DNA of 64,000 nucleotides, from the NCBI RefSeq assembly GCF_017916275.1, contig NZ_JAFMST010000002.1, positions 62,001 to 126,000 of the forward strand, written 5' to 3'. Shown here one piece after another: positions 2,108-29,532 of the stretch. A program made the translations under genes and the position numbers. Below the pieces are notes generated by a model. The model was not told the origin of the DNA, made no database searches, and saw only the letters and a list, made by a program, of their open reading frames with translations. This DNA comes from Rubellimicrobium arenae (GTDB taxonomy: Bacteria > Pseudomonadota > Alphaproteobacteria > Rhodobacterales > Rhodobacteraceae). Position 1 is the stretch's first letter. Every line of letters starts with the position of its first letter.

Positions 2108-3161
2108 GGCGTTGTTGCACAACTCGATCTGAGGGCGAACTTGCCCCTTTCCCCTTCGGTTTAGCTGACGCGCACGATCTCAGCCCGGCCCAGGGCTGAG
2201 AAGCGGTTCATGAGGGCGATACGGGTGTGGGTCTCGGCGGTTTGGCGGTTGGGATCTCGGGAGGCGATGCGCTCGCCAAAGCTCTTGAGGCGGCGCATCT
2301 GGGCCTCCACCCGACTTCGGGCGTGGTAGCCTGTCAGCCGCTTCCAGAAGGCTCGCCCGAAATATCTGGAGGCGCGCAGGATCTCGTTCCTGGCCTTAGC
2401 GGCGGCACAGTCTTCCTTCCAAGGACGGCCGTTCTTTCGGATCGGGATGACAGCCGTGGCACCGCGCTCAGCGATGGCGGCATGGCACTTGCGGGTGTCG
2501 TAGGCGCCATCAGCCGTGACGGTGCCGATGGCTTGGTCGGCCGGGATCTGCGCGAGAAGGTCCAGGAGCACCGGGCTGTCGCCCTCGCGGCTGGGTGTAA
2601 ACTCGACCGCGCGGATGTCCCCGGTGGCCGTGTCCATGGCCAGGTGGACCTTGCGCCATTGCCTGCGCCGGCCAAGGCCGTGCTTGCGCACCTGCCATTC
2701 GCCGTCACCCCGTATCTTCACCCCGGTGCTGTCGACCAGCAGGTTCAGGTTGCCGTCTGAGCGGCGGAACGGGATCTGAATGGTGACGGTCTTCTGCCGC
2801 CGGCAGAGCGTCGAGTAGTCCGGCACCGGCCAGTCAGCCAGGCCGGCCATCTTCAGCAGGCTTTCCACCATCCCGATGGTCTGCCGCAGGGCTAGGCCGA
2901 ATAGGACCTTGATGCTCAGGCAGAACTGGATCGCTGAGTCAGAGTACGTCTCATTTCGCCCCGGACGGCCACTCGGAGCCGCCAGCCACTCCATCTCCCG
3001 GTCCAGCCAGACCAGCAGGGAACCACGCAGGCGCAGCGACGCGTTGTACTCGGGCCAGTTCGTCGTGCGGTAGCGGGCAGGTGACGGCTTGCTCATGCCC
3101 GCCCACATATGCGCCTCCTGTCCCTACACGAGCGAGCGCCACGAGGTTGTGCAACAACGCC
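2108..3161 (-). mobile_element. Complete IS5-family insertion sequence
   Basis: A 1054-bp element bounded by perfect 16-bp terminal inverted repeats, GGCGTTGTTGCACAAC at 2108-2123 and its complement at 3146-3161. It encloses one transposase gene. The flanks (GTCTGCCCC on the left, TCGGCCATG on the right) do not form a target-site duplication. That suggests a deletion or recombination next to the element after insertion. The right end lies inside the TM0106-type nuclease gene. Confidence 0.93.
2161..3108 (-). CDS. IS5-family DDE transposase
   Basis: A 315-residue intact transposase of the IS903-like branch (N-terminus RTTNW.EYNASLR.RGSL). DDE residues are visible: the first Asp in LLVDSTGVK, the second in TADGAYDT, and the Glu in YHARSRVEAQMRRLK, which fits the IS5 signature Y-(2)-R-(3)-E-(6)-K exactly. 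The start at 3108 is preceded by AGGAGG at a 5-nt spacing; a second ATG at 3096 has no better site. Length and reading frame are intact, so the element could still be active. Confidence 0.93.
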   Translation of the reverse strand: MWAGMSKPSPARYRTTNWPEYNASLRLRGSLLVWLDREMEWLAAPSGRPGRNETYSDSAIQFCLSIKVLFGLALRQTIGMVESLLKMAGLADWPVPDYSTLCRRQKTVTIQIPFRRSDGNLNLLVDSTGVKIRGDGEWQVRKHGLGRRRQWRKVHLAMDTATGDIRAVEFTPSREGDSPVLLDLLAQIPADQAIGTVTADGAYDTRKCHAAIAERGATAVIPIRKNGRPWKEDCAAAKARNEILRASRYFGRAFWKRLTGYHARSRVEAQMRRLKSFGERIASRDPNRQTAETHTRIALMNRFSALGRAEIVRVS

Positions 3162-3964
3162 TCGGCCATGCCGCGGATCCGGTGGTCGAGCGAGGCGAGC
3201 TCGGCCATCGTGCGGACGCCGGCGTCCTCCAGCTTCATCACCTGCCCGCGGGCGATGTTGGCCACGTTGAAGAGGCTGTCTTGCCTATCCCAAGTCTCCT
3301 GGCAGCGGTCCGCCCAGCCGCAGAGACCACAGTCCGAGCACGGGATGGGACGGGTCGGCCAAGGGTCGGCCACGAACCCCTCCAGCCGCCGCTGCGCCCG
3401 CCGGGCATAGGCGGCGTAATCGGCCAGGCGGATCGTGGCGCGTTTCCCGGTCCCGAGCTCGATATGCGCGAACTCCGGGGCGCGGCCTTGCACCCGCGCG
3501 AGAAGGTCCGAGTAGACTACGGGCTGAAGCACGTGCTTGGGCGTGATCTCCCGCTTCAGCTTGGTATCCGCTACCTCATAGCTGAAGGTACCGAGGGCAG
3601 ACGGCCGGTCCACCCGCTCCAGAAAGTCGGCCCATCCGCCCCAGAGCCCCGCGTGAAGGGCGCCTTGGAAGACGTAGTCGATGCCGTCGGCGAGCGCCGC
3701 CCGCGTGGCGTGGGCGCAGTCCTGCATGGAGCCGCGGCGGATTTCCACGACAGGGCGGCCGGACTCTTTCAGCTTGGCGAGGTAGGCCTTCTCGTGGGCC
3801 AGGCCCTTGGCCTGCAGGATCCGGGCTTCCGCGTCATCCCCGGCCGGCAGCTCGCCTCCATCTCGGAGCAGCTGAAGGTCGTAGGCGGTGGCCTGGTGGC
3901 AGCCCGAAAAGCGCATGAGGTCGGAGGCCGACAGCAGGACTCGTCCACCCAACTCTCTCATCAT
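3162..3964 (-). pseudogene. Truncated TM0106-type RecB/Cas4-like nuclease (5' fragment)
   Basis: The fragment encodes the first ~267 residues of a PD-(D/E)xK nuclease of the TM0106 family, which usually continues into a C-terminal region of several hundred residues. Visible are HEKAYL, a catalytic Asp in GWADFLERV, the D-x-K core in YEVADTKLKRE, the Q-x3-Y-like stretch VLQPVVYSDLL, and a Cys cluster (CSDCGLCGWADRC) fitting a Cas4/AddB-type Fe-S site. The IS5 end at 3161 interrupts it after ALLHNLV and the frame then runs antisense through the IS to a stop at 2951. No 3' half is found on the other side of the IS. The start is MM at 3964/3961; the Shine-Dalgarno is weak. Confidence 0.8.
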
Positions 3965-4291
3965 ACACCAAATCACTGGACCGCGCTCCGCGACTGAGAT
4001 CGGCCGGCAGCGACCTGTCAACGTTCGTGAACAGCAGGCGGACTGGATTGATCAGAAACTGCGGCGCCAGGATCATCCTCTTGAGAGCAAAAAAAGAACT
4101 TCCGGCTAGCCTGCTCGTCGTGGCTCACCTCGTTCCTAAGCTCGTGGCACAAGCTCTCCACGCTCCGAAGCAGTAGGGGGAACAAGCAACGATCATCACG
4201 GCTAGCTGGACGATATCGAAGCTCGTGGGAAAGTCGCGGAAGGGGCTGAGTTGGGCTGACCAGAGCCGCATGGTCTCGACGCTATTCTCGC

Positions 4292-4319
4292 GAGGGTCCG
4301 CTCCTAAGCGGACGCCCTC
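4292..4319 (-). terminator. Hairpin downstream of the metallophosphoesterase gene
   Basis: GAGGGTCCGC and GCGGACGCCCTC form a 10-bp stem with a 2-nt bulge and a TCCTAA loop, 19 bp after the stop of the minus-strand gene at 4338. There is no T tract, so a terminator role is only inferred. The rest of the 3965-4337 gap shows nothing I can support. Confidence 0.35.
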
Positions 4320-4337
4320 AAGCCGCGTGCATCAGGG

Positions 4338-5051
4338 TTACGGGGCAATCCCCATTTGCGTAAGAGGCAGCTCGAGCGTGAAGGCTTCATGATAGCCCAC
4401 GCAGCGGAAGTGGGTGCGCCCGTCTTGGTGGGCCCATGGGTGGTGCCAGTGTCCAAAGAGCCAAAGCGACGGCTGCAGGACCGCATGGACCTTGTCCAGA
4501 AACAGCCGGGTGCGCGAGGAGTGGGCAAGGCCTTGGCCAACCCCGTCGCCTGAGCTGCCAGTCTCACGCCAGAGCCGATCAGCGACATGCTGCGGGGCGT
4601 CGTGGCTGACGACCACATCAGGCATCTCAGCGGAAGCACTCAGACGTTTGAGCACTTCATCCATCTCGTCCTGTGCCATCTCCGTATCCTGCCGTGGCCG
4701 AAACGGCTGCCGTTGGGACTCTGCTCCCCCTAAGAAGAGAACGCGTCCGAGGATGATGCCATCCGGGAGATAGCCAGGCGCACGGATCACCTCCTCAGGT
4801 CGGTCGTGGTTACCCCGGATGAAGCGGTGCCGCCGATGCGCGAGATGGAAGGATCGCACATCACGCGCCTCCGCGTCCGAGCCGTTTCCAATGCCGTAGT
4901 CGCCCACTTGGATTGAAGGCAGAGGCCGGCCGGCCTTGGCCTCCTCTCGCCTAAGAAGCGCACGATAGGTGTCGAAACCGGCGTGGATGTCCCCCACGAT
5001 GATCGTGGGTATGCGCTCGATGTCCTTTGGCCTGCTCAGATGATGTGTCAT
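4338..5051 (-). CDS. Calcineurin-like metallophosphoesterase
   Basis: A 237-residue cytosolic protein with the full dinuclear-metal motif set of the superfamily in order: GDIHAG (residues ~20-25), QVGDYG (~48), RGNHDRP (~79), VSHDAP (~147) and FGHWHH (~198). It lacks a signal peptide or membrane segment. The substrate cannot be read from sequence; the family includes protein phosphatases, nucleotidases and small-molecule phosphoesterases. It sits upstream of the truncated nuclease and downstream of the PGN_0703-like endonuclease on the same strand, 208 bp apart, so co-transcription with the latter is possible but not shown. Confidence 0.88.
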   Translation of the reverse strand: MTHHLSRPKDIERIPTIIVGDIHAGFDTYRALLRREEAKAGRPLPSIQVGDYGIGNGSDAEARDVRSFHLAHRRHRFIRGNHDRPEEVIRAPGYLPDGIILGRVLFLGGAESQRQPFRPRQDTEMAQDEMDEVLKRLSASAEMPDVVVSHDAPQHVADRLWRETGSSGDGVGQGLAHSSRTRLFLDKVHAVLQPSLWLFGHWHHPWAHQDGRTHFRCVGYHEAFTLELPLTQMGIAP

Positions 5052-7310: not shown

Positions 7311-7799
7311 ATGATTGAGCCTATCATTGAATATCTCGAGATTGACCCTAAAGAAGGCGCAAAAGGCGGTAACTGGCAGCTTTTCGGGGTTGAGCACAAC
7401 GAGTATTATAACAATCACTATTACGAGGAGGTTCGTAGGATTCTCCTCGAAAGCGCGGGGATATACATTTTTTACGACAGCATGGGGCGCGCAATCTACG
7501 TAGGTAAAACGGAGAGACAATCATTATGGCATGAAGCAATCGGCGCGTTCAACCGTCCGCGCGACGAGCACCAATCTATGTTCGCAGTCAATCACCCGCG
7601 CGCTAATGTCAAGAAGGTGATACGCAACCGGCAGATAGTGAGGCGACCATTTGTGCTGTATGATGTCGCGCGATATTTTAGTGCCTATAAGGTGGAAAAA
7701 CAGCATATTGCTCAGATGGAAGCATTCCTTATTCGCGCCTTCGCAAACAATTTGATGAACAAGAGGATCGAGAAAATTCGCCTTGAAGTTCAGGATTAG
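7311..7799 (+). CDS. GIY-YIG domain nuclease, stand-alone
   Basis: A 162-residue protein with a GIY-YIG core: GIYIFYDSMGRAIYVGKTER (residues ~50-69, GIY and YVG), a conserved RPRD region, and QMEAFLIRAFANNLMN with the catalytic Glu and terminal Asn expected for the fold. The first 45 residues (LEIDPKEGAKGGNW) are an N-terminal extension. I chose the ATG at 7311 because AAGGA lies 6-7 nt upstream; an in-frame ATG at 7260 lacks a site. The gene is clearly richer in A+T than its surroundings, a sign of recent transfer. It could be a defence nuclease, a homing-type enzyme or a repair nuclease. Confidence 0.8.
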   Translation: MIEPIIEYLEIDPKEGAKGGNWQLFGVEHNEYYNNHYYEEVRRILLESAGIYIFYDSMGRAIYVGKTERQSLWHEAIGAFNRPRDEHQSMFAVNHPRANVKKVIRNRQIVRRPFVLYDVARYFSAYKVEKQHIAQMEAFLIRAFANNLMNKRIEKIRLEVQD

Positions 7800-7921
7800 G
7801 CTAAGACTTGTAACGACCCGCACCTTTCAGCGGCGCTGCCAGACCGAGCGCCATCATCTCCCTCCTGATCCCTCCGAGCGGGCTAGCCGGCCCCGATGGA
7901 GGCCGGCCTCTTCATCCGGCC

Positions 7922-8098
7922 TCAGGTCAGACGCCGTTTCATTTCCCGGACGACGCTTTCGCGCACACGGAGCTGGCTGTCGATCATCTCCTGGCGCGAG
8001 GCACCGCGATAGGCTTGGGCGAGAACCTGTTCGGCGGTGCGGATGACGTGAGCGCGCTTTTCGTTCTGGCTGCGCTCTTCGATCTTGCTGTGCTTCAT
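7922..8098 (-). CDS. Small charged hypothetical protein (58 aa)
   Basis: The 58-residue product begins MKHSKIEERSQNEK and ends in REMKRRLT. It is highly charged and predicted to be mostly helical, with Gln/Arg/Glu patterns like a coiled coil or a small nucleic-acid-binding protein. GGAGG lies 10 nt upstream of the ATG at 8098, which supports this start over the upstream in-frame ATG at 8209. I do not recognise a family. Neighbours are the GIY-YIG nuclease (convergent) and an unrecognised plus-strand gene starting at 8296. Confidence 0.5.
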   Translation of the reverse strand: MKHSKIEERSQNEKRAHVIRTAEQVLAQAYRGASRQEMIDSQLRVRESVVREMKRRLT

Positions 8099-8295
8099 CT
8101 TTATCGAGCCTCCATGGCATGTCGGCCCGCCGGTATAGCGAGCGCGAGCTGCTTTCAGAGGCGCAAGGAGAGTCACTGCATACTTGGGGTCTAAGCGAAG
8201 AGTCTGCACGGCTCAATAGCGCGAACATGGGCCTGCGACCGTCTCTGTCGCACCCTCCTGCTATGTGCCTGGGACCTTCATCATGGAGGTGCCCG

Positions 8296-8703
8296 ATGCC
8301 CAGCCGCTACGCCGCCCGACTTGCCCTTGAAACCGCTCTCCGCCTCGGGCGCAACCTGCCTCGTACAGGACGTGGGCTGCGCGAACTCTCCGGATGGGCG
8401 GAGGAGTGCGAGCTGGGCCTCGGCTGGAAGCATCAGAGCGGGCGCGGCCGCTGGGACCGCGCACCTGCGCCTGATCGGGAGGCCCTTGTTACAGCCATCA
8501 AGCGGGTAGCCCAGACCTACGCACGGGCTCGCCGTGACGAGGTCGCCTGCAACCTCGACGTCCTTGCCGATTGGCTTGCCCTCGATCCGGTGGAGCGCGA
8601 CTGCGTCGCCTTGATTGCCCGCGCTGAGCGGTCGGAGCCTCTCGCACCTCTCTTGGAGATCGTGACGGAGAAGAGCGGCATGAGCCACGATGAAAAGGGC
8701 TAG
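8296..8703 (+). CDS. Hypothetical protein, possibly the N-terminal piece of a larger protein
   Basis: A 135-residue product with a strong GGAGGT site 6 nt before the ATG at 8296. It is soluble and helical; residues ~98-122 (WLALDPVERDCVALIARAERSEPL) resemble a helical segment seen N-terminal to AAA+ domains in alphaproteobacterial ATPases, but this is recalled similarity, not shown. The frame stops after MSHDEKG at 8703, about 95 bp before the 3' end of the broken IS6-family transposase gene. The insertion may have cut off a longer gene, with the stop coming from junction sequence. Confidence 0.4.
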   Translation: MPSRYAARLALETALRLGRNLPRTGRGLRELSGWAEECELGLGWKHQSGRGRWDRAPAPDREALVTAIKRVAQTYARARRDEVACNLDVLADWLALDPVERDCVALIARAERSEPLAPLLEIVTEKSGMSHDEKG

Positions 8704-8797
8704 CGCTGATGACCGGTCACACGGCCGCAGAGGTGCGTCAGGCGGGTGGTATCAGACCGATGCGAACCAGTCTCGAATTCGGCAGGTCCGCTCGACG

Positions 8798-9502
8798 TCA
8801 GGTGGCAAAGAGGCCCCGCCAATCGGCGAGAGCGGCGGTGCGGGCCTGCTTGTAGACGCTGCGGCTGGAGACGCTTCGTTCGGTGTTGAACAGGTTGTGA
8901 ACGGAGGAATGGACGGCGGCGAAAATCTGCAGACTTCGCATACGCCGCAACCGCAGCATCGCCCGCTCCCGCCTTCGGAACGGTTGGTGGGAGTTCTCGA
9001 CGCGGTTGTTCTCCCTGCGGCCGGTCACCTGCCGGCCCTCGGCTCCGATGTCCTTGAGGGCAGCACCGCAGGACTTGAGCCCATCCGTCACGAACTCCTC
9101 GGCTCGCCCATGCCGCTTCATGAGTTTCCTCAGGAACTTCAGAGCTGCCTTCTTGTCCCGCTGCTTGGAAACAAAGGCCTCCAGCACTTCTCCTTCATGA
9201 TCCACCGCGCGCCAGAGGTAGTGCTAGACGCCGTTGATCTTCACGAACACCTCGTCCAAATGCCAGCGTCATCGAGACGAGCGCATCCCGCTCACACGCT
9301 TGCGCCGGATCTCGGCTGCGAACAGCGGGCCAAAGCGCAACCGCCAGAACCGCACCGCCTCGTGGCTCACCTCGATCCCACGCTCATGCAGCAGGTCCTC
9401 GACGTTCCGAGGCGAAAGTGGGAAACGCACATAGAGCATCACCGCTAGGCGGATCACCTCGGGCGAGGTCTTGAAGGAGCGGAACGGGCTGCACTGGTTC
9501 AT
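8798..9502 (-). pseudogene. IS6-family transposase with two in-frame stop codons
   Basis: A 234-codon frame covers a full IS6/IS26-type transposase: FRSFKTSPEVIRLAVMLYVR at the N-terminus, LSPRNVEDLL and HEAVRFW, then the DDE domain WHLDEVFVKINGV (Asp), VTDGLKSCGAAL (Asp) and NNRVENSHQPFRRRE (Glu). It is interrupted by TGA (complement at 9269-9271, before RWHLDEV) and TAG (complement at 9224-9226, before HYLWRAVDHEGE) without any frameshift. The usual Tyr of the second motif is Cys. Clear terminal inverted repeats were not found. The element is inactive. Confidence 0.88.
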
Positions 9503-9992
9503 GCCGGCGAGGGCAACGGAGCCCCTGCCCGGCTCAAGCGAAGTTCTTCTGACGCCGCCTGTGCGCGGCAAGACCCCCCGATGCGGATCTTGCGACGGAG
9601 GGGCGCGCAGCTCCCTCGTCGCGCTCAAGCCGGCGCGACCGCGTTCTCCAGGAGCTTCTCGCTCACCGGCCCACGGCCACAGCACCGCGCCCCTCTACTC
9701 CACCCCGAGATCCCGCTAGCCCTGCGGCGGCGCTCGCCGCTAGACTAAGTCTCAGCTGGTGGCTCACTGTCCCGGTCGCAGGCCCCCTCTCGGGCCCTGG
9801 TGCGGAGGCGACCCTGGCCATGCGGGTGCACCAGTGCGCCTGGAGGTGATGGGCTGGTGACGTGGTGAATGGTTGGCGTGGCACAAGGCCCCGATGGGCC
9901 AGCCCTCCCTCAGAGCACCGACGCCCCTTGCCGATCGATCGAGCCCGCCCGGCGCAGCCCTTGCACCCACACCCTCGAACCGGGAGATCGCC
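9503..9992. other. Non-coding stretch between IS6 relic and serralysin gene
   Basis: I see no gene here. The segment includes the expected outer end of the IS6-family element (GGGGCTCCGTTGC on the minus strand near 9514-9526 is a candidate end) and the leader of the protease gene. Long reading frames in it are antisense or out-of-frame extensions. Confidence 0.4.
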
Positions 9993-17285: not shown

Positions 17286-18646
17286 GGGACTTGCCGATCG
17301 AAGCTGTGGCACCCAGGCCCGACCCGCTCGCCCCTGCCCTTAGCGAGGACGCCCTCGCGGCGGCCTTTGTGCAGGCTTATGGATCCACCTGGCGCTATGT
17401 GGCCGACTGGGGTTGCTGGCGCTTCTGGACTGGGACGCATTGGGCCCGAGACGAGGTCGGGGCCGTCCGTGAGTTGATCCGGCAGGTGTGTCGCTCGGCC
17501 GCCGTGGCCCATGATAAACCGGGTGAGGCCCGACGGATCGCCAGCGACAGGACCATTCGGGCCGTCGAGCGCATCGCGACCGCCGATCCCGCGATGGCCG
17601 CGCGCCCGTCTGATTGGGACACCTCGCCCATGGAGTTGAACACGCCGGCGGGTTTGGTCGATCTGGCGACCGGAGAGATCCGCCCGCACGACTCTAGCAT
17701 GCTGGTGACCCGCCTCACTGGCGCGAGCCCTGGGACGGGCTGCCCGAAGTTCATGGCCTTTCTGGATCAGATCACAGGCAGTGACGCCAGACTTGTCGCC
17801 TACCTGGCCCGGTTCTTCGGCTATTGCCTCACCGGCTCCACGCGAGAGCAGGTCTTCGTCTTTCTCGAAGGGCCGGGGGCGAACGGCAAGTCCGTCCTGC
17901 TGCAAACCATCGCTGCGGTGATGGGGGACTACGCCGCGACCGCCCCCTTGGAGACCTTCATGGCTTCCCAATCGGATCGTCACTCGACGGATCTGGCAGG
18001 GCTGCAAGGCGCGCGCCTCGTGCTGGTGCCGGAGGTCGAGGCGGGTCGCGCCTGGTCCGAGGCGAGGATCAAGACGATCACCGGGGGCGAGGAGATCAAA
18101 GCCCGCTTCATGCATCGCGACTTCTTCCCGTTCCGCCCGCAGTTCAAGCTGGCGGTGGCTGGCAATCACAGGCCCAGCCTGGCGCGGGTTGGCGAGGCGA
18201 TGCGGCGCAGGCTGCATCTCGTGCCCCTCACCGTGACGATCCCGCCCGAGCAGCGGGACAGGCAGCTGCCCGAGAAGCTCCGGGCCGAGCGCGACGGCAT
18301 CCTGGGCTGGATGCTGGCGGGCTGTGCCGAGTGGCAACTGATGGGACTCGCGCCCCCTCCCGCCGTCTCGTCTGCGGTCGAAGACTACTTCGCCGCCGAG
18401 GATGTCTTTGGACAGTGGGTGGCCGAGGAGTGCCGCACCGGTCCGCCCCTCAGTGCCACGGCCAAGCACCTGTATGGCTCCTGGTCCATCTGGGCGAAGG
18501 CTCGCGGGCACGAAGTGGGTTCGACAAAAACCTTGGGCGAGTTGCTCCGGGAACGCGGCCTCGCCCCCAAGAAGATAGGACGCGATCGAGGCTGGTCGGG
18601 CATTGCGCCGGACCGGAGAGCGTCGTCGGGGGAGGACGTCTCATGA
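17282..18646 (+). CDS. Phage/plasmid primase-helicase, P4/D5 family
   Basis: A 454-residue replication protein with a D5_N-type N-terminal half and an SF3-like helicase C-terminal half. The N-terminal part includes WGCWRFWTGTHWARD and MELNTPAGLVDLATGE. The P-loop is GPGANGKSVLL (residues ~198-208), followed by DLAGLQGARLVLVPEVE (Walker B-like), ITGGEEIKARFMHRDFF and the sensor-like FKLAVAGNHRPS, all typical of the family. It lacks the long N-terminal zinc primase domain of some members, so it is likely helicase-dominated. It starts within the stop of the HTH gene and overlaps the next gene by 4 bp. Confidence 0.9.
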   Translation: MRDLPIEAVAPRPDPLAPALSEDALAAAFVQAYGSTWRYVADWGCWRFWTGTHWARDEVGAVRELIRQVCRSAAVAHDKPGEARRIASDRTIRAVERIATADPAMAARPSDWDTSPMELNTPAGLVDLATGEIRPHDSSMLVTRLTGASPGTGCPKFMAFLDQITGSDARLVAYLARFFGYCLTGSTREQVFVFLEGPGANGKSVLLQTIAAVMGDYAATAPLETFMASQSDRHSTDLAGLQGARLVLVPEVEAGRAWSEARIKTITGGEEIKARFMHRDFFPFRPQFKLAVAGNHRPSLARVGEAMRRRLHLVPLTVTIPPEQRDRQLPEKLRAERDGILGWMLAGCAEWQLMGLAPPPAVSSAVEDYFAAEDVFGQWVAEECRTGPPLSATAKHLYGSWSIWAKARGHEVGSTKTLGELLRERGLAPKKIGRDRGWSGIAPDRRASSGEDVS

Positions 18647-18843
18647 ACCCCTACCCTGCCTCACGCATGAGCCCTGCCGAGCGCCGCACCGAGCTGTGCG
18701 CGATCCTGGCCACGGGGCTCAGGCGTCTGCGTCTCCGGGTCGTGCAGTCAAGCGTAGTATCCGACCTGACCGGAGAGAGTTCGCTTCACTCAGGCACCGA
18801 CCAGAGCGGTCATGCAACCACGTCCAATCGGAGAGTCGCATGA
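18643..18843 (+). CDS. Small conserved ORF heading the recombinase cassette
   Basis: The 66-residue product contains SRMSPAERRTELCAILATGLRRLRLR, a pattern I recall from short proteins upstream of DUF2924-recombinase pairs in alphaproteobacteria. It is basic and helical at the N-terminus and polar at the end. It overlaps the primase gene by 4 bp on one side and the DUF2924 gene by 4 bp on the other, so five genes (17076-20686) are chained by ATGA-type overlaps. Function is unknown. Confidence 0.65.
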   Translation: MNPYPASRMSPAERRTELCAILATGLRRLRLRVVQSSVVSDLTGESSLHSGTDQSGHATTSNRRVA

Positions 18844-19316
18844 CCACAATCTCACCCTCGCCGTCCACCTCGCCCGATCCCATCCCGGCGCGCCTTGCGG
18901 CGCTCAGGACCACCCCCACACCCGAACTCAAGCGCCAGTGGCGCGAGCTCTTCGAGAGCGAGCCGCCGACCTTCAACCGCCGCTACCTCGAGAGCCGTCT
19001 TGCCTACCGCATCCAGGAGCTGGCCTACGGCGGCCTGAAGCCCGAGACGGTGCGGCGGTTAGAGGCGCTGGGCGAGCAGCTCGACGGCGGCAACGTCGTG
19101 ACCCGCCGCATCCGGGCCGACCTGCGGCCCATCGCCGGCACGCGGCTCATCCGCGAGTGGCAGGGCGTGGAGCAGGTCGTGACCGTGCTCGCGGACGGCT
19201 TCGAGTGGCAGGGCCGGTCCTACCAGTCCCTCTCCGCCATCGCCCGCGCCATCACCGGCACCCGCTGGAACGGCTGGGTGTTCTTCGGGCTCAAGAACCA
19301 CCGGAGGGCGGGATGA
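18840..19316 (+). CDS. DUF2924 domain protein
   Basis: A 158-residue protein with the DUF2924 signature: LRTTPTPELKRQWRELFESEPP, then NRRYLESRLAYRIQELAYGGL, followed by GTRLIREWQGVEQVVTVL.DGFEWQGRSYQSLSAIARAITG and WNGWVFFGLK. The C-terminal part resembles the RAMA-like strand/helix unit often found beside DNA-acting enzymes. DUF2924 genes almost always precede a serine recombinase gene of this type, so a partner or directionality role in site-specific recombination is plausible but not known. It overlaps neighbours by 4 bp on both sides. Confidence 0.85.
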   Translation: MTTISPSPSTSPDPIPARLAALRTTPTPELKRQWRELFESEPPTFNRRYLESRLAYRIQELAYGGLKPETVRRLEALGEQLDGGNVVTRRIRADLRPIAGTRLIREWQGVEQVVTVLADGFEWQGRSYQSLSAIARAITGTRWNGWVFFGLKNHRRAG

Positions 19317-20686
19317 GGACGACAAGGACTAGCACGGCCTCGAAGACCAACGCCGCCCCGGCCTCTGGCCCTGCGCCTGTCACCAAGCCGCTCGTGCGCA
19401 AGCTCCGCTGCGCCGTCTACACCCGCAAGTCGTCCGAGGAAGGTCTCGAGCAGGAGTTCAACAGCCTCCATGCCCAGCGCGAAGCGTGCGAGGCCTACAT
19501 CGCGAGCCAGCGCTCGGAGGGCTGGGTGCTGGTGCGGGACCAGTACGACGACGGCGGCATCTCGGGGGGCACGCTGGAGCGCCCGGCCCTGCAGCGGCTC
19601 CTCTCGGACATCGAGGACGGGCTCGTGGACGTGGTGGTGGTCTACAAGATCGACAGGCTCAGCCGCTCGCTCATGGACTTCTCCAAGCTCGTGGAGGTGT
19701 TCGACCGCAATGGCGTGACCTTCGTCTCTGTCACCCAGTCGTTCAACACCACGACCAGCATGGGGCGGCTCACGCTCAACATCCTGCTCAGCTTTGCCCA
19801 GTTCGAGCGGGAGGTCACAGCCGAGCGCATCCGCGACAAGGTGCGCGCCTCCCGCATGAAGGGCATCTGGATGGGTGGCGTCCCGCCCCTGGGCTACCGC
19901 GTGGAGAGCCGCAAGCTTGTTGCCGACCCGGAGCGGGCCCCGCACGTGCGCTGGATCTTCGAGCGCTTCGCGGAGGTGGGCTCGGGCACGGTACTCACCC
20001 GGGAGCTCCGGGCGCGCGGCGTCACCACCCGGTCGGGCGGGCCGATCTCCAAGAGCGTGCTCTACCGCCTTCTCAGCAACCGAACCTACCTGGGCGAGGC
20101 CGTCTACAAGGGCACGAGCTACCCCGGCGAGCACGAGGGGATCGTTGATCGGGCGCTCTGGGACAAGGTCCACGCCATCCTGCAGGACAGCCCCCGGCTG
20201 CGCGCCAACCGGACACGGGCGCAGACCCCGGCGCTTCTGAAGGGCCTGATCTTTGGACCCGACAGAGCCGCGTTCTCGCCCAGTCACACGCGCAAGGGCG
20301 GGCGGCTCTACCGCTACTACGTGAGCCAGACGGTGCTGAAGCAGGGCACCGGGTCGTGTCCGGTGGGCCGGGTGCCCGCGGGCGAGATAGAGGCAGCGGT
20401 TGTCGATCAGCTCCGCGCCGTGTTCCGCCAGCCCGAGATCGTGGTGGGCACCTGGCGCGCCGCGCACAAGGAGGACGCTGCCATCACCGAGGCCGAGTCC
20501 CGCGAGGCGCTCCACCAACTCGATCCCCTGTGGGACGAACTCTTTCCGGCTGAGCAGGCGCGCATCGTGCAGCTTCTGGTCGAGCGCATCGACCTCACTC
20601 CCGAGGGGCTGAACCTCGCCCTGCGCGTGGACGGGCTCACTGGCCTCGTGCAGGAGATGGCCATCGGACTGGAGCAGGCCGCCTGA
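19313..20686 (+). CDS. Large serine recombinase (integrase of the element)
   Basis: A 457-residue protein. The resolvase domain starts at ~30: AVYTRKSSEEG with the catalytic Ser40 in the YxRxS setting, then DQYDDGGISGGTLERPALQRLL, VVVYKIDRLSRS and FERE.TAERIRDK. The recombinase domain follows (GYRVESRKLVADPE to LYRLLSNRTYLGE), then a C-terminal region without the usual zinc-ribbon cysteines (HTRKGGRLYRYYVSQ), as in the alphaproteobacterial branch that travels with DUF2924. Length fits that branch. It would insert or excise the element; no att site is visible in the window. Confidence 0.92.
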   Translation: MRTTRTSTASKTNAAPASGPAPVTKPLVRKLRCAVYTRKSSEEGLEQEFNSLHAQREACEAYIASQRSEGWVLVRDQYDDGGISGGTLERPALQRLLSDIEDGLVDVVVVYKIDRLSRSLMDFSKLVEVFDRNGVTFVSVTQSFNTTTSMGRLTLNILLSFAQFEREVTAERIRDKVRASRMKGIWMGGVPPLGYRVESRKLVADPERAPHVRWIFERFAEVGSGTVLTRELRARGVTTRSGGPISKSVLYRLLSNRTYLGEAVYKGTSYPGEHEGIVDRALWDKVHAILQDSPRLRANRTRAQTPALLKGLIFGPDRAAFSPSHTRKGGRLYRYYVSQTVLKQGTGSCPVGRVPAGEIEAAVVDQLRAVFRQPEIVVGTWRAAHKEDAAITEAESREALHQLDPLWDELFPAEQARIVQLLVERIDLTPEGLNLALRVDGLTGLVQEMAIGLEQAA

Positions 20687-21081
20687 TGCGCACGACCACC
20701 TTGCCCGACAGCCTCACCCTGCATGTGCCGCTGCGGCTGGTCCGGCGCGGCGGGCGCAAGGCGGTGGTGCTGCCGCAGGACACCCCTGCCCCACGGCCGC
20801 GGCTGGACAACACCCTCGTCAAGGCACTGGCCCGGGCGTTCCGCTGGAAGCGCATGCTGGACGCAGGGGAGGTCGCCACCATCGCTGAGCTGGCCCAGCG
20901 GGAACGGATCGCGCCGTCTCACCTCTCAAGGGTTCTGCGGCTGACGCTGCTCGCCCCCGAGATCATCGAGGCGATCCTTGACGGCCGCCAGCCCCCCGGT
21001 CTGGTGCTGGAGATGCTGCGGGAGGCGTTCCCGCCGGAATGGCACCAGCAGCTTGAATGGCTTCGGCATCACGTAGGTTAG
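20686..21081 (+). CDS. Helix-turn-helix protein downstream of serine recombinase
   Basis: A 131-residue product. After a strand-rich start (LTLHVPLRLVRRGGRKAVVLP) comes an HTH region: LVKALARAFRWKRMLDAGEV, then IAELAQRERIAPSHLSRVLRLTLLAPEIIEAIL. The final stretch PPGLVLEMLREAFPPEWHQQ matches proteins regularly encoded after such recombinases. It starts on the last base of the recombinase stop codon, so it belongs to the same operon. It is probably a DNA-binding accessory factor of the recombinase; this is inference from position and fold. Confidence 0.72.
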   Translation: MRTTTLPDSLTLHVPLRLVRRGGRKAVVLPQDTPAPRPRLDNTLVKALARAFRWKRMLDAGEVATIAELAQRERIAPSHLSRVLRLTLLAPEIIEAILDGRQPPGLVLEMLREAFPPEWHQQLEWLRHHVG

Positions 21082-21140
21082 CCTCCCCTGCCCCGCCTTG
21101 CGCCACCCCGCTGCCATCCATTAGGCCTAGGCCGGGTCAC

Positions 21141-21623
21141 GTGAAACTGAAAAAGAGCCAAGCCTCGAGTCTGCAGTCGGTCCGCGAGTTCTTTGCTGAG
21201 CACGCTCCGGAGATCGAGGTTCTCGTCACAGAGGAGAGCTCGGCCGCCGTGGCCCTTGCGGCCGTCGTCCATGACGTTGAACCGGCCCAGATCGCCAAGA
21301 CCATCTGCGTGCGCGTGGGCGAGACCACGATGCTGGTGGTGGCCAGCGGCACCGCGCGGCTGGACAACCGCAAGTTCAAGGACCGCTTCGGCACCAAGCC
21401 CCGCATGCTGGAAGCAGAAGAAGTGCTGTCAGCGACCAGTCACCCAATGGGCGGCGTATGCCCGTTCGGCCTACCTGCCCTACTGCCCGTCTACTGTGAA
21501 GTCTCGCTGCGCGCCTTCGAGGAAGTTGTGCCGGCCGCCGACGCCATCAACGCCGCCGTGCGGCTCACACCAGAGCGCCTGGCAGAGTTCACGGCCGCGG
21601 AGTGGGTGGGCATCTGCAAGTAG
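21141..21623 (+). CDS. YbaK/ProX-type aminoacyl-tRNA deacylase
   Basis: A 160-residue trans-editing domain protein. The YbaK/ProRS-editing fold is recognisable from VHDVEPAQIAKTICVRVG, LVVASGTARLDNRKFK, the MLEAEEVLSATSHPMGGVCPFGL loop (the conserved G-G-V-x-P-F-G) and LTPERLAEF. It would hydrolyse mischarged tRNA, probably Ala- or Cys-tRNA(Pro). I chose the GTG at 21141; an ATG at 21057 lies inside the previous gene. It follows the recombinase cassette on the same strand and may be a passenger of the element. The 21624-21980 region after it has no clear gene. Confidence 0.85.
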   Translation: MKLKKSQASSLQSVREFFAEHAPEIEVLVTEESSAAVALAAVVHDVEPAQIAKTICVRVGETTMLVVASGTARLDNRKFKDRFGTKPRMLEAEEVLSATSHPMGGVCPFGLPALLPVYCEVSLRAFEEVVPAADAINAAVRLTPERLAEFTAAEWVGICK

Positions 21624-21980: not shown

Positions 21981-24079
21981 ATGATCGCAGACCACCTGAC
22001 CGGGATCGAACAGTTCGGCGCAGACCTCTGGAAGATGGCCGATGACCTGCGGGCCAACTCTGGTCTCGCGTCGAACGAGTACTTCATGCCCATCATGGGG
22101 CTCCTTTTCCTGCGGCAGGCCACGAACCGCTACTACGCAGCACTCGCCGCGATCGAGGCCGACAAAGCCGCCGGAAAGATGCCGGATCGTCCGCTGGTCG
22201 ACGCAGACTTCCGCCGCCGCCGAGCAATGCTGCTGCCTGAGGCAGCCCGTTATGATATGATCCTCGATATGCCCAAGGGTGGTCGGCTTGGTGAGGCGCT
22301 TACCGCCGCCATGGAGGAGGTAGAAGAGCATTTCCCTCCGCTTGCAGGCCAACTACCCAAGGACTACGAGCGCTTCGACGACGACCTGCTTGAAAGCATG
22401 ATGCGCAAGTTCGACACCGAAGCCCTGCGCAGCGCTTCGGGCGACGTCTTCGGCCGCATCTATGAATACTTCCTTGCCGAGTTCTCCAAGCAGGGCGCTC
22501 ATGACAGCGGTGAATTCTTCACCCCGCCGTCCATCGTCCAAACCATCGTCAACGTGATCGAACCCGATCATGGCATCGTATTCGACCCGGCGTGCGGCTC
22601 GGGCGGCATGTTCGTGCAGTCCAGCCATTTCATCGAGGACGCGGGCCAGGACACGATGAAGCGCGTCACGTTCTACGGCCACGAAAAGAACGAGACGACC
22701 GCGAAGCTCGCCCAGATCAATCTGGCTGTTCACGGCCTTCAGGGCACGATCCGGGCCGGTAACGAAGCCATCACCTACTACAAGGACCCGCACGAGCTCG
22801 TTGGTAAGTGCGACTTCGTGATGGCCAATCCACCTTTCAACGTGGACGAGGTCGACGCTGACAAGATCAAGGGCGACAAGCGGCTGCCCTTCGGCCTGCC
22901 GGGCGTGAACAAGGCCAAGAAGGTCTCGAACGCCAACTACCTGTGGATGTCCTACTTCTACAGCTACCTGAACGAGAACGGTCGCGCCGGTGTCGTCATG
23001 TCCAGCCAGGCATCCAGCGCCGGGCGGGACGAAGCCGTCGTGCGCCAGAAGCTGGTCGAAACCGGCGCCGTCGACGTGATGATCGATATCCGTGGCAACT
23101 TCTTCTACACGCGCACTGTGCCCTGCCAGCTGTGGTTCTTCGACCGGGCGAAGGAACGTGACCCGGCACGCGCCGATCACGTCCTGATGCTGGATGCGCG
23201 CAACATCTACCGAAAGGTGTCGCGCGCCATCTACGACTTCGCGCCCGAGCAGCAGAAGAACATCGCCGCCATTGTCTGGCTTTATCGGGGCCAAGTGGAC
23301 CGCTTTCTGCAACTTGTCGAAAGCTACGTTGCGCAGGCCATCAGCGCAGGCGAGGCAGCTGCGGAACCGTTGGCCGACTATGACGATACGCTCGGCAAGC
23401 TCGTCGATCTGGTGCAGCCCTTTGTCACCGAAAAGCGCGATCCGGATCCGCTGGCGGAGACCTGGGGCGAACTGACCCGCGCGCGGTCAACGCTGGGCGA
23501 AGATATCGCGGGGTTCGGCGCCACGGTGGCAGCGCGGGCAACGGCTTGGACCGACGCCGCGCGAGACAATGCCGGGCTGCATGCGGCGCGCACCGGGCTA
23601 AACCCCATGTCCGACCGCTGCCGTGACATGATCAAACAGATCGACTTGGCCGCCAAGCTAGCCGGGCGAGTTGTGGATACTGCTGTCAAGGAACTGGACT
23701 CCCGCGACCATGACCTCTGGCCCAATGCCGAGGTGACGCGCGCGCGCAAGGCGTTGGAGGCGGCGCGGGCCGCCGCGGTGGAAGCGTTGCGGGCTGCGCG
23801 GTACTTCGTGAAGCAGGCCGACTGGCTGCAGGAGCGCTTCCCAGATGCCGTCCTGCGCGATGTCGAAGGCTTGGTGAAACGGGTCAGCAGGGCCCACATC
23901 TCCGCCCATAACTACAGCCTGACGCCCGGACGCTATGTCGGCGTGGCGCCTGAGGAGGTGGACGAGGGTTTTGACTTCGAGGAGGCGCTACGGTCAATCC
24001 ATATCGACCTAAAAGGGCTGAACGAGGAAGCGGCAGAGTTGGCGGGGCGGATTGCCAAGAACTTTGAGGAGTTGGGGGC

Positions 24080-24083
<4 letters not shown>
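21981..24083 (+). CDS. hsdM: Type I restriction-modification methyltransferase subunit
   Basis: A 700-residue N6-adenine methyltransferase. An N-terminal helical HsdM_N domain is followed by the catalytic domain with FDPACGSGGMF (motif I, residues ~200-210) and NPPFN (motif IV, ~281), and the GEFFTPP loop before it. The last ~270 residues form a long helical, Ala/Arg/Glu-rich extension, beyond the ~500-530 residues of EcoKI-type HsdM. It works with HsdS to methylate the recognition site. It overlaps hsdS by 4 bp. Base composition is lower in GC than the core genes to the right. Confidence 0.95.
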
Positions 24084-25299
<1,216 letters not shown>

Positions 25300-25303
<4 letters not shown>

Positions 25304-26097
25304 CCGACGACTGGGGTGATCTCGCAGGCGCTGGCTTTGAGAATTTCCGCCTAAGTCATAGGGATCGAGCGCTTGGATTCATAGAGAACCATCGAGACTT
25401 CGAGGCGCAACTCTTCGCGATCAAGGGTGCCTTGGAACGCAACAAGGAGGCTGAGCAACGCGCGTCGGACAACATCCAGCACATGCGCGAGCAAATCAAC
25501 CTGCTTGCCCCCGAAGATCATCGCAACCGGGACCACTTGGACGACTACCTCACTGACATGTTCCATGACAGTGTCTATTCCGACGCGGCACACTCTATGG
25601 CCGCAGTGGGTATGCTAGCACCGTATTTTGAGTCTTTATTCGTTGCCCTCTTTGATGCCATTGGTAAGAAAGTGGGGAGTGACCTCGGCTCGGGAAAGCG
25701 AGCGAAGGCATTCCAAGAAATCTACTGGAATCCGCAGGTTGTCATAAGAGACAAGCGCATGGGGGACGATCTGGTAGTCGGCATCATGGAACTCGCAACG
25801 GAAGTCGGGCTCCTCACCTATCTGCCTCAGGATTTGGATAAGACTCTCAAAGCGCTATTCGCGTATCGCAATAACATGTTCCACAATGGGTTCGAATGGC
25901 CGCTTGAAACGCGCCAGAGATTCCAGAACCGTAGCGCAAACCAGCATTGGCCCAAAGACTGGTTTGAGCAATCCACATCGGGCGACGATCCGTGGATCTT
26001 CTATATGAGCGAGAAGTTCATCACTCGCTGTCTAGCCACAATTGACGAGGTGCTGGACGGCGTGGGGAGATTTCTCAAAGAGCGAAATGACGGATGA
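25300..26097 (+). CDS. HEPN-like protein inserted in the hsd operon
   Basis: A 265-residue soluble, mostly helical protein of no family I can name. Residues 190-195 read RNNMFH, an R-x4-H motif with the polar residue after Arg that is typical of HEPN ribonucleases, placed near the C-terminal end of a helix (LKALFAYRNNMFHNGFEWP). The first ~130 residues include a coiled-coil-like stretch (LERNKEAEQRASDNIQHM). It starts with GTG inside the hsdS stop and ends 9 bp before hsdR, so it is made with the RM enzyme. By analogy with PrrC, which is tied to a type I RM locus, it could be an RNase triggered when restriction fails. This is inference. Confidence 0.6.
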
Positions 26098-26106
26098 GTT
26101 AGTTGC

Positions 26107-29100
26107 ATGGCAGTAACGAGTATCAACAGCGAGGACAGGCTGGTCCAGAAGACCTTCGCCGCCCACTTAGAACAGATGCTGGGCTGGGAGAGCGTGTATG
26201 CCTGGAACCAGGAAACCTTCGGCCCGGATGGCACGCTGGGCCGCAAGGACACCAAGGACACTGTGCTGACCCGTGACCTAAGCGCCGCTCTCGCCCGCCT
26301 TAACCCCGACCTACCCGAGAAGGCAATTGAGGAAGCCGTCCGCGCGCTGACTGTATATGACGTCAGCCGGTCGATGGTGCAGCACAACCGGGACTTCCAC
26401 CGCCTGATCCGCGGCGGCGTGCCCGTCACCTATCGCGACGCCCAGGGCCGACAGAAATCCGCACGCGCCCGCGTGATCGACTTCGACAACGCCCCCGGCG
26501 CCAATCGCTTCCTTGCTGTGCGCGAGTTGAAGCTGACTGGAATCCGGACACCCAACTACAACCGCCGCGCCGATCTGGTCTGCTTCGTGAATGGCCTGCC
26601 GATGGTCTTCATCGAGTTGAAGGCCGTCTATAAGAATATCCGGGCTGGATTCGAGGGCAACCTGCGCGACTACGTGGACGAGAATGTCATCGCGCATGCG
26701 TTTCATCACAACGCCTTCCTGATCGTCTCAAACGGTGACAGCGCCCGCTATGGTTCGATTACGAGTGAATGGGAGCATTTCTACGAATGGAAGCGGCTGG
26801 ATGAGGGGGACGAGGGCAGCGTTGATGCCGAGCGACTTCTCAACGGCATGCTGGCGCATGACCGGCTGCTCGATCTCGTCGAGAACTTTCTCCTGTTCGA
26901 CGAGAGCAAGGCGGGAGCCGTGCGCAAGGTGGTAGCGAGAAACCACCAGGTCCTGGGCGTGAACCGCGCGGTAACATCAGTCGCACGGCAAGAAGCAATA
27001 AAGGCAAGTATCCCGGCCGGAGAGCGTCTACGGCACCGCGTGGTGGAGTTGCCGCTGGAGCCCAAGGCACCGGCGAAGCGCAGCAGGGGCGACCAAGCCC
27101 TTGTCTCGGCGGAGACAGCGCTGCCGTCCTTCGTCCCCGAGGGTCCCGTCGAGATCATCGAGCGGGCGCACCCCGATTTAGGCCGGCTGGGCGTGTTCTG
27201 GCATACGCAGGGCAGCGGAAAATCCTATTCCATGGCCTTCTTCGCCGAAAAGGTGCGGCGCAAGGTGCCGGGCAATTTTACCTTCCTGCTGATGACCGAT
27301 CGAAACGATCTGGACAGCCAGATCTACAAGACCTTCGTGGGCTGCGGCGTTGCCGGAAACGAGACTCCGCGCGCCACGTCCGGCGATGATCTCGAACGGA
27401 TCCTAAAGGACAATAACCAATATGTCTTTAGCCTGATCCACAAGTTCAACAAGGATGTCGACCCGAAGAAGCCCTACAGCCAGCGTGACGACATCATCGT
27501 GATCTCGGACGAGGCGCACCGCACCCAGGCGGGGCGGCTGGCCCGCAACATGCGTCTGTCGCTCCCCAATGCCGCCTTCATTGGCTTCACTGGCACGCCG
27601 CTGTTCAAGCAGGACGAGATCACCAAGCGCATCTTCGGCGAATATGTCTCGCGCTACGATTTCAAGCGGTCCGAGGAAGACGGGGCCACCGTCAAGCTGG
27701 TCTACGAAAACCGGGGCGAGAAGCTGGGCGTCGCCAAGACAGACCTGAACGAACAGATTGCTGAGAAGATAGAGGAGGCAGAGCTCGACCCCGATCAGGC
27801 GGCGCTTCTCGATAAGCTGCTCGGGAAGGACTACGAGGTCATCACCGCCGATGAGCGGCTCGACAAGATCGCAGCCGACTTCGTGGAGCACTGCGCGACG
27901 AGGTGGGAGTCCGGAAAAAGCCTCTTTGTGTGCATCGACAAGATTACCTGCGCCCGAATGCACCAGATGATTATCCCCCGATGGCGGGCGAAGGCGGCCG
28001 AAGTCAGGTTGGCAGCCGAAGCCAAGCAAACCGAAGCGGATGCAACTGTTGATGAGTCCCTGCGCGCTGTCCTCGCGGAGGAGGCGCAAGAGTTAGCTGA
28101 GCAGGCTACGTGGCTTGAGGAAACTATCGTCGAGATCATCATCAGCGAAGCGCAGAACGAGGTCGCGGACTTCAAAAAATGGGGGTTCGACATCATCCCG
28201 CACCGCGCCTTGATGAAGCAGGGCTTCGATACCGGGAATGGCGAACGGATTGATGTCGAGACAGCCTTCAAGAACCCCAAGCACCCGTTCCGCGTCGCAA
28301 TCGTCTGCGCGATGTGGTTGACCGGTTTCGACGTGGAATGCTTGTCGACGCTCTACATCGACAAGCCGATGAAGGCACACACGCTGATGCAGGCCATCGC
28401 GCGGGCAAACAGGGTGTATCCTGGCAAGGACTTCGGCCTGATCGTCGACTACAACGGGATGCTCGCCAGCCTACGAGCCGCGCTCGCCCAGTACGCGCTC
28501 GGTGATGATGGCACAGGTGGAGAAGAGATCATCGCACCCATCGAGGAGAGGGTGCAGGCCCTTCTCGAAGCTATCGAGGCAACCGAGGCCCATCTGCGCG
28601 GCCTTGGCTTCGACCCGACCGTGCTGCTCGGCTCGAAGGGCTTTGTGCGCATCAAGGGACTGAAGGACGCCGTAGAAGCGGTCTATTCGACGGACGAATC
28701 CAAGCGGCGCTTCGAGATTCTCGCACGGCAGGTATTCATTCGCTTCAAGGCGCTGCTGATGGAGCCCAGCGCGTGGGCACACGCCGAACGACACGACAAC
28801 ATCGAAGCGATCTACAAGAAGCTGACCGAGCGGCGCGACACGGCTGACGTGACTGGGCTGTTGAAGGAGTTGCACCGGATCGTCAACGAGGCCATCCGAA
28901 CGCAGGTGCCAGGAGACGACCAAGCCGAAGGGTTGACCTTCGACCTCAGTCAAATCGATCTTGAGAAGTTGCGCGATGAATTCCCTAAGGGAGTCAGGCG
29001 CAAAGCGACCGCGCTTCAGGACATCCGCGACATCGTCGAACAGAAACTCGCCGAGATGCTGGCGCGCAATCCAGCCAGGATGGACTATCAGGTGAAGTAT

Positions 29101-29532
29101 GAGGCGATCATCGCCGACTACAATCGGGAGAAAGACAGAACCACCATCGAGGAGACGTTCCGCCGATTGGTAGAGTTCGTCAACAGTCTGGACGAGGAAC
29201 AGAAGCGCGCGACGAAGGAGGGGCTCGGCGAAGATGAACTCGCGCTCTTCGACCTGCTGCTCAAGGATAATCTAGACAAAACGTCTCGTGAGCGCGTGAA
29301 GCAGGCGAGCCGCGACCTCTTTGGCTCCATAAAGGCGCGCTTGGCCGAACTCGATCGCTTCTGGGAGAAGGAGCAGACCAAGGCTGATATCGAGGTCTTC
29401 ATCTTGGACGAGGTATTCGCGAGCTTACCGTCACCGCCCTTTACGTCCGACGAAAAGGAAGCGCTTGCTGCAAGCGTCTACGCACATGTGTGGCAGCAGG
29501 CCGTGAATGGTGGCTTCGCACAGGCGGCATAG
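26107..29532 (+). CDS. hsdR: Type I restriction endonuclease/translocase subunit
   Basis: A 1141-residue motor-nuclease. The N-terminal PD-(D/E)xK nuclease is RRADLVCFVNGLPMVFIELKA (Asp, then E-L-K). SF2 translocase motifs follow: Walker A HTQGSGKSYSM (residues ~365-375), Walker B DEAHRTQ (~467), FTGTPL, a conserved LTGFDVECLSTLYIDK, and motif VI ARANRVYPGKDFGLIVDY. A long helical C-terminal domain ends at FTSDEKEALAASVYAHVWQQAV. Length is within the usual 1000-1200. The gene is intact and 9 bp after the HEPN-like gene. Confidence 0.95.
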   Translation: MAVTSINSEDRLVQKTFAAHLEQMLGWESVYAWNQETFGPDGTLGRKDTKDTVLTRDLSAALARLNPDLPEKAIEEAVRALTVYDVSRSMVQHNRDFHRLIRGGVPVTYRDAQGRQKSARARVIDFDNAPGANRFLAVRELKLTGIRTPNYNRRADLVCFVNGLPMVFIELKAVYKNIRAGFEGNLRDYVDENVIAHAFHHNAFLIVSNGDSARYGSITSEWEHFYEWKRLDEGDEGSVDAERLLNGMLAHDRLLDLVENFLLFDESKAGAVRKVVARNHQVLGVNRAVTSVARQEAIKASIPAGERLRHRVVELPLEPKAPAKRSRGDQALVSAETALPSFVPEGPVEIIERAHPDLGRLGVFWHTQGSGKSYSMAFFAEKVRRKVPGNFTFLLMTDRNDLDSQIYKTFVGCGVAGNETPRATSGDDLERILKDNNQYVFSLIHKFNKDVDPKKPYSQRDDIIVISDEAHRTQAGRLARNMRLSLPNAAFIGFTGTPLFKQDEITKRIFGEYVSRYDFKRSEEDGATVKLVYENRGEKLGVAKTDLNEQIAEKIEEAELDPDQAALLDKLLGKDYEVITADERLDKIAADFVEHCATRWESGKSLFVCIDKITCARMHQMIIPRWRAKAAEVRLAAEAKQTEADATVDESLRAVLAEEAQELAEQATWLEETIVEIIISEAQNEVADFKKWGFDIIPHRALMKQGFDTGNGERIDVETAFKNPKHPFRVAIVCAMWLTGFDVECLSTLYIDKPMKAHTLMQAIARANRVYPGKDFGLIVDYNGMLASLRAALAQYALGDDGTGGEEIIAPIEERVQALLEAIEATEAHLRGLGFDPTVLLGSKGFVRIKGLKDAVEAVYSTDESKRRFEILARQVFIRFKALLMEPSAWAHAERHDNIEAIYKKLTERRDTADVTGLLKELHRIVNEAIRTQVPGDDQAEGLTFDLSQIDLEKLRDEFPKGVRRKATALQDIRDIVEQKLAEMLARNPARMDYQVKYEAIIADYNREKDRTTIEETFRRLVEFVNSLDEEQKRATKEGLGEDELALFDLLLKDNLDKTSRERVKQASRDLFGSIKARLAELDRFWEKEQTKADIEVFILDEVFASLPSPPFTSDEKEALAASVYAHVWQQAVNGGFAQAA

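Follow-up and report, generated by a model that had tools for sequence, protein, structure and literature searches.

A probable HEPN-type RNase gene as apparently exchangeable cargo between hsdS and hsdR of a type I restriction-modification operon

The gene between hsdS and hsdR in the window (the whole 64,000-nucleotide stretch of Rubellimicrobium arenae DNA that was analyzed) probably encodes an HEPN RNase, as predicted here, of an unnamed family. With a probability of roughly 0.6, this protein is a stand-alone HEPN-type RNase that a type I restriction-modification (R-M) operon carries in its slot between hsdS and hsdR as exchangeable cargo against phages, and its trigger is independent of this particular R-M enzyme. 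The gene product would be a metal-independent RNA endonuclease that, through a start-stop overlap, is made in step with hsdS and most likely has no activity before a signal derived from a phage or from stress reaches it. It would then cut RNA of the host, the phage, or both and stop the infected cell, providing a second layer beside restriction. The RNase activity, the target, the trigger, and the autonomy of the protein are what we infer from the observations described below.

RESULTS

The HEPN-like gene is a separate gene inside a type I operon

The HEPN-like open reading frame (ORF) lies between hsdS and hsdR (Table 1), where the initial annotation had placed it. Bases 25300-25303 (GTGA) contain both its GTG start and the TGA with which hsdS ends, and a gap of 9 bp (positions 26098-26106) separates it from the ATG of hsdR; overlap and gap agree with the earlier description. 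The gene had also been described as fused into the operon; it is indeed inside a type I operon, but as a separate gene with no protein fusion. Its neighbors hsdM, the translation of which contains NPPF, hsdS, and hsdR look like an apparently complete type I system by their family matches. The 4-base overlap with hsdS recurs in all five operons of the window type that have the full HEPN-like gene.

Upstream of hsdM is a group of three ORFs that we take to be a recombinase cassette, and between it and hsdM lies an ORF that is presumably YbaK-type deacylase-like. Relatives of all three cassette ORFs were observed upstream of the hsd operons of two other loci, L018 and L061, with 58 to 78% identity, and a relative of the 131-aa ORF was also observed near the HEPN-like gene of L001. 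Because of these relatives, the R-M unit may be mobile together with a recombinase.

Table 1. Features of the window and cargo of the hsdS-hsdR slot in related operons
Locus	Feature	Position	Strand	Remarks
Window	Presumed recombinase cassette	18603-21081		237-aa ORF, serine-recombinase-like ORF, 131-aa ORF
Window	ORF, presumably YbaK-type deacylase-like	21057-21623		188 aa
Window	hsdM, type I methyltransferase	21981..24083	+	Pfam N6_Mtase 1.8e-69, HsdM_N 1.2e-12; PADLOC MTase_I 2.1e-244
Window	hsdS, specificity subunit	24080..25303	+	Pfam Methylase_S 3.8e-19; stop overlaps HEPN-like start
Window	HEPN-like gene	25300..26097	+	265 aa, GTG start on hsdS stop; R190-N191-x3-H195, E111
Window	hsdS-hsdR interval, cargo slot	25304..26106	+	803 bp; related operons: HEPN, AIPR, CBASS, PsyrTA, Fic, zeta toxin, others
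Window	hsdR, restriction/translocase subunit	26107..29532	+	Pfam SWI2_SNF2, HSDR_N, T1RH-like_C; TIGR00348 above cutoff
L058	Slot cargo			DUF4268
L061, L062	Slot cargo			HEPN-like
L066	Slot cargo			AIPR/AbiU
L109	Slot cargo	1462-4979		PsyrTA-like pair (RecQ-like + DprA-like), E. coli plasmid
L110	Slot cargo			AbiD with ImmA/IrrE and DUF4411
L111	Slot cargo			PIN
L112	Slot cargo		opposite strand	dCTP deaminase
L129	Slot cargo			Zeta toxin with HicB-like
L130	Slot cargo			Fic with HicB-like
L133	Slot cargo			RhuM-Fic
L136	Slot cargo	7795-9596		CBASS-like pair: SMODS cyclase + 4TM effector
L138	Slot cargo			DUF1016 nuclease
L141	Slot cargo			Ppl

Relatives of the protein occur in varied gene contexts

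When genome contigs were scanned with the window protein as the only query, 34 relatives were obtained, in Pseudomonadota, Verrucomicrobiota, Planctomycetota, Acidobacteriota, Chloroflexota, Chlorobiota, and Thermodesulfobacteriota. The family is rare, with a match in 3 of the 295 genomes of the window's taxonomic family, the window genome included. On plasmids, 13 records gave a match, every one of them annotated as a hypothetical protein, and no match to the HEPN-like protein was obtained among phage records. Alignment A1 comprised the window protein and 29 of the 34 relatives (30 rows); L029, L030, L031, L033, and L034, which are incomplete, split, or truncated where a contig stops, stood outside it. 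A set of 34 rows was formed from A1 plus two further copies in hsd operons (L061 and L062) and two plasmid copies (L047 and L048).

Used as tblastn queries, the window Hsd proteins detected type I genes like their own at four (L004, L011, L018, and L029) of the 34 contig loci, and no R-M genes of this kind were in view at the rest. Among the neighbors that were scanned, the surroundings were otherwise diverse. In L001, the HEPN-like gene stands behind an EcoEI-type HsdR, together with GmrSD; in L002, it occurs with TPR-PIN and permuted GreAB-C genes; and in L006, it occurs with HmaB and an HmaC that has an N-terminal HEPN_Swt1. Further contexts were a dCTPase-like gene (L011), an upstream DUF1016 nuclease (L013), a DUF1156 methylase with an SNF2/PLD helicase and PIN (L019), and an HSDR_N protein that the HEPN-like gene precedes (L027). 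Of the plasmid copies, L048 is near PIN, ATPase, and TIR genes and L047 is near a PAPS-reductase/DUF4007/cysteine-desulfurase cluster, which may be a phosphorothioation cluster. By mechanical ORF calls, the gene lacks a close neighbor in the same direction in four relatives (L012, L022, L023, and L028), and housekeeping neighbors were seen in L024 (GMP synthase) and L008 (FakA/DegV).

The R-N-x3-H motif and an acidic residue are invariant

The sequence RNNMFH occupies residues 190 to 195 of the HEPN-like protein (codons 25867-25884), as had been annotated. R-x4-H is expected 0.63 times by chance in shuffles of the window protein, which has a second match (RSANQH), and this chance level led us to reject R-x4-H by itself as evidence for HEPN. 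Judged from the alignment, conservation raises R-N-x3-H above chance, because R190, N191, and H195 as well as E111 are identical in all 34 rows, together with Y189, G197, and W200. The initial annotation had let its case depend on R-x4-H being retained in homologs, and R190 and H195 are retained in every row. In excerpts of PMC3710099, the HEPN motif is defined as R-x4-6-H with a polar residue after the R, and R190-N191-x3-H195 has this form throughout the 34 rows.

The scan peptide MFHNGFEW is absent from 16 of the 34 rows, and RN..[LF]H is kept in all 16, one of which (L061) is not an independent case, having been found by a scan with two patterns that included YRNxMFHxG. YRNxMFHxGFEW is a signature specific to the family, and further invariant residues outside the general HEPN motif are S99-M100 and G104-M105 in addition to G197 and W200.

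The predicted helix layout resembles that published for HEPN proteins

An AlphaFold2 model of the window protein made with alignment A1 (pLDDT 87.4, pTM 0.83) has long helices at residues 34-68, 74-125, 179-196, and 238-264, an insert between helices 2 and 3, and a beta-hairpin at residues 222-236. The model of a shorter member, L025 (pLDDT 88.8), has the same order of elements. In the secondary structure of both models, R190-H195 is located where the third long helix ends and the second long helix contains E111, and the same layout of motif and helices is described for HEPN by Anantharaman et al. in 2013 (excerpts of PMC3710099). Csx1 likewise has a beta-hairpin after the motif.

Foldseek searches gave no match at an E of ≤0.001, either against the PDB with the two models or against the BFVD viral models with one model. 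TasH chains, which recurred near the top of the Foldseek PDB lists, were discarded (TM 0.14 to 0.21, rmsd 13 to 19). Also discarded were two matches with E above 1 from a PDB sequence search with the window protein as the query, and the spectrin repeats (best E 0.003) and designed proteins from a PDB search with the family profile. The comparison of an AlphaFold model with HEPN structures that the initial annotation proposed thus gave agreement in helix layout and no PDB match at this Foldseek cutoff.

The nearest of four HEPN profile sets is DUF4145

The protein had been called unrecognized, and it has no match above the curated cutoffs of Pfam, NCBIfam, or PADLOC: one Pfam match fell far under the cutoff, and none was found in NCBIfam or PADLOC, which were compared with the window protein alone. 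When all 30 rows of A1 were compared with Pfam and PHROGs, scattered weak matches were obtained, the best having an E of 0.0036 in a single row, and no family matched more than two rows; the PHROGs matches were dismissed as noise.

The family profile was compared with four HEPN sets, made from 18 of 22 DUF4145 matches, 13 of 14 PF05168 matches, 5 of 6 Swt1 matches plus L006, and 2 of 2 Apea matches. DUF4145 (PF13643) was best, with a score of 22.4 (15.4 for the reversed profile), and none of 60 column shuffles scored as high as the real profile, compared to 1 of 60 for PF05168, 17 of 60 for Swt1, and 21 of 60 for Apea. The Swt1 reversed profile outscored the real one. The Apea and Swt1 comparisons were set aside as uninformative, given how many shuffles scored as high. 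With hhalign against DUF4145, the probability was only 2.6 to 3.3%, with an E of 0.013 to 0.018. In the DUF4145 alignment, N191 and H195 are in register and R190 is opposite a G, and R-x4-6-H is absent from the matched stretch in 12 of the 18 DUF4145 rows used. DUF4145 is listed as an HEPN family with a mostly conserved motif in excerpts of PMC3710099.

The profile link of the family to DUF4145 appears weak. What the two have in common is the order of helices, the register of the motif N and H, and occurrence in defense contexts, DUF4145 itself being fused to or near R-M parts; the present family differs in that no library model fits it and in having a signature of its own, and the proteins of the set are 224 to 310 aa long. 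The earlier HEPN-like assignment is thus upheld by the invariant R-N-x3-H, the helix order, the acidic residue of helix 2, and this weak profile link, but not by fold searching. Taken together, the readings in which the protein is an HEPN protein seem to us very likely to be right, mainly on the strength of motif and helix order.

The hsdS-hsdR slot carries diverse defense genes

For a survey of the slot, operons were found by HsdR similarity and the hsdS-hsdR interval of each was then measured. Five of the 32 loci found in this way were dropped since no hsdS was visible (L052, L056, L113, L128, and L139); for plasmids, where 51 records had an HsdR match, the survey covered 5 of them. The interval measured 640 to 3538 bp in 18 of the 27 operons, and in the other 9 it was ≤26 bp or an overlap. 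Adding the window and L004, L011, and L018, which were found through the HEPN gene, brought the count to 22 of 31 operons, with intervals of up to 4837 bp; L029, another locus reached through that gene, has no visible hsdS and stood outside this count. Recognizable cargo was present in 14 of the 18 large intervals (Table 1); L142 gave no match, and L131, L135, and L137 were outside the scan. Apart from HEPN-like genes, the slot also carries unrelated defense systems that are apparently complete. A 416-aa ORF with no match above the cutoff was seen between the HEPN-like gene and hsdR of L062 (L062:6057-7307, minus strand) and is a candidate second cargo gene.

The gene and the operon differ in their histories

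The search of genome neighborhoods for homologs between hsdS and hsdR, which the initial annotation had suggested, gave five operons with a full HEPN-like gene in this place: the window, L004, L018, L061, and L062. Among them, the identities in pairwise alignments were 78.6 to 94.4% for HsdM and 79.5 to 94.4% for HsdR, 41.9 to 53.2% for the HEPN-like protein, and 33.2 to 58.6% for HsdS. Between the window and L018, HsdM was 93.0% and HsdR was 93.2% identical, and the HEPN-like proteins were 44.1% identical (pairwise; 37% in the multiple alignment). The window protein is closer to those of L001 and L002 (63%, multiple alignment), both of which are outside such operons.

In a tree of the 34 rows, the window copy groups with L001 to L003 (support 99/98) and the L018 copy pairs with L026, a non-hsd copy (support 100/99). 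An approximately unbiased (AU) test rejected a single clade of the five slot copies (p 1.6e-53) and also one of the window, L018, and L061 (p 1.7e-74); the groups tested were named by operon position, and the identities and the tree had been seen before the test. The slot label needs 5 changes on the tree, which gives no direction of exchange, so that copies could have departed from hsd operons as well as joined them. In both cases, the histories of the gene and the operon differ.

An R-M-facing surface common to the slot copies was not seen in the columns specific to them, of which there were 3; at least 3 were also present in 632 of 792 five-row subsets from the same 12-row clade, which makes this a weak test.

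DISCUSSION

Autonomous cargo as the favored reading, and its alternatives

Because the gene is found beside unrelated defense systems as well as alone, and because its slot is shared with independent systems that are apparently complete, an autonomous, exchangeable abortive-infection cargo is favored over the R-M-guarded RNase that the initial annotation had put forward. In the latter case, the HEPN protein would be silent in the type I complex and be freed when a phage protein disables the enzyme, which we consider unlikely. Its position follows the same logic as that of PrrC, which is held in the type I complex of EcoprrI (excerpts of PMC3874165), and the tight hsdS overlap, kept in five of five operons, would suit a guarded toxin too. 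Anantharaman et al. proposed such guarding for R-M-linked HEPNs in general (excerpts of PMC3710099). Nothing specific to the present locus supported such guarding, however: no ABC-ATPase part was found, unlike in PrrC, and relatives stand beside unrelated systems or alone, some of them with no R-M genes in view. In addition, the gene is 42 to 53% identical between operons in which HsdM and HsdR are 79 to 94% identical, the slot copies do not form one clade, and the slot holds unrelated defense systems. Guarding also predicts a shared surface, and no hsd-specific conserved columns stood out in the weak test described above.

The remaining alternatives concern the protein itself. That it has the HEPN fold but acts as an RNA-binding or regulatory subunit instead of a nuclease is highly improbable; some HEPN families that have lost the motif may just bind RNA (excerpts of PMC3710099), but here, unlike in those families, every row retains the full R-N-x3-H and the same acidic residue. 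It is also improbable that this is no HEPN protein and that an unrelated long-helix protein uses its invariant RNxMFHxGFEW-like stretch in another role. Such a protein would fit the Foldseek lists, which had no HEPN above noise, the low profile probabilities, and the invariant residues outside the general HEPN motif; it fits less well with a window protein in which the motif ends the third long helix, the acidic residue is in the second, an insert separates the two, and a beta-hairpin follows the motif as in Csx1, or with a DUF4145 score above all 60 shuffles.

Relation to known systems

With PrrC of EcoprrI, the window protein shares a gene position inside a type I R-M operon and, probably, an HEPN-type active site. 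PrrC and RloC, however, have an SbcC/Rad50-like ABC-ATPase fused to HEPN, whereas the much shorter window protein has no ATPase family that could be found, and PrrC is tied to type I R-M whereas the relatives of the window protein are not tied to R-M. The earlier suggestion that the PrrC strategy would gain a new type of partner here does not hold, since the nuclease of PrrC is itself of the HEPN kind and no fewer than 16 HEPN clades adjacent to R-M systems had been described in 2013; that HEPNs accompany R-M and may have a second-line suicide role was already stated or proposed (excerpts of PMC3710099).

Defense genes between hsdS and hsdR, with the suggestion of a hotspot, are reported in excerpts of PMC12255303, and excerpts of PMC11411939 describe the embedded TgvAB and cite RloF between hsdR and hsdS. 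A preprint by Payne et al. on genes embedded in immune systems is cited in excerpts of both PMC11411939 and PMC13092281. DarTG2 (hsdS-hsdR, EPEC), TgvAB (Vibrio cholerae), and RloF are likewise separate defense genes at this position or a comparable one, whereas the cargo here is a single HEPN-like gene of an unnamed family that varies from one near-identical hsdM/hsdR backbone to another. HEPN nucleases within BREX-related loci or close to them have been read as backup suicide effectors (excerpts of PMC12839542), and L006 puts the window family beside HmaB/HmaC of such Hma/DUF499 systems; unlike in those systems, the window family has no Swt1 match and is hosted by an operon of the classical type I R-M kind. 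No paper on HEPN together with AIPR and type I R-M was found among the open-access papers searched. As far as those papers show, two things appear to be new: the family, and the way its members turn over while the hsdM/hsdR backbone stays nearly identical.

We suggest, as a tentative and rather doubtful extension, that the HEPN family serves unrelated DNA-sensing defenses (type I R-M of two kinds, Hma-like, TPR-PIN, and possibly phosphorothioation-based systems) as a plug-in effector that cuts RNA and that the hsdS-hsdR junction is a site of effector exchange. If this is true, effectors would be swapped while hsdM/hsdR and the start-stop overlap with hsdS stay constant, and one restriction enzyme could be given different suicide effectors in turn. 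An unnamed, phylum-crossing HEPN-like family joins the known set of embedded defense effectors. The near-identical hsdM/hsdR backbones with differing occupants between hsdS and hsdR amount to a natural experiment, which makes it a testable question whether the restriction enzyme keeps guard over embedded toxins or these simply travel with it.

Additional observations at related loci

In L052 (6647-7885, minus strand; genome G239), the last third only of an hsdR 94% identical to that of the window was seen, with no hsdS or hsdM within the 14-kb region. L029 has no hsdS in view, and its positions 8001-8381 contain an N-terminally truncated HEPN-like remnant directly before an hsdR that is 81% identical to that of the window; an ORF upstream of it is presumably transposase-like. 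The EcoEI-type HsdR of L001 (4612-8004), which overlaps the HEPN-like gene, carries an N-terminal DUF4145, an HEPN family, and the L001 operon has two HEPN-type domains, the DUF4145 of HsdR and that of the HEPN-like gene.
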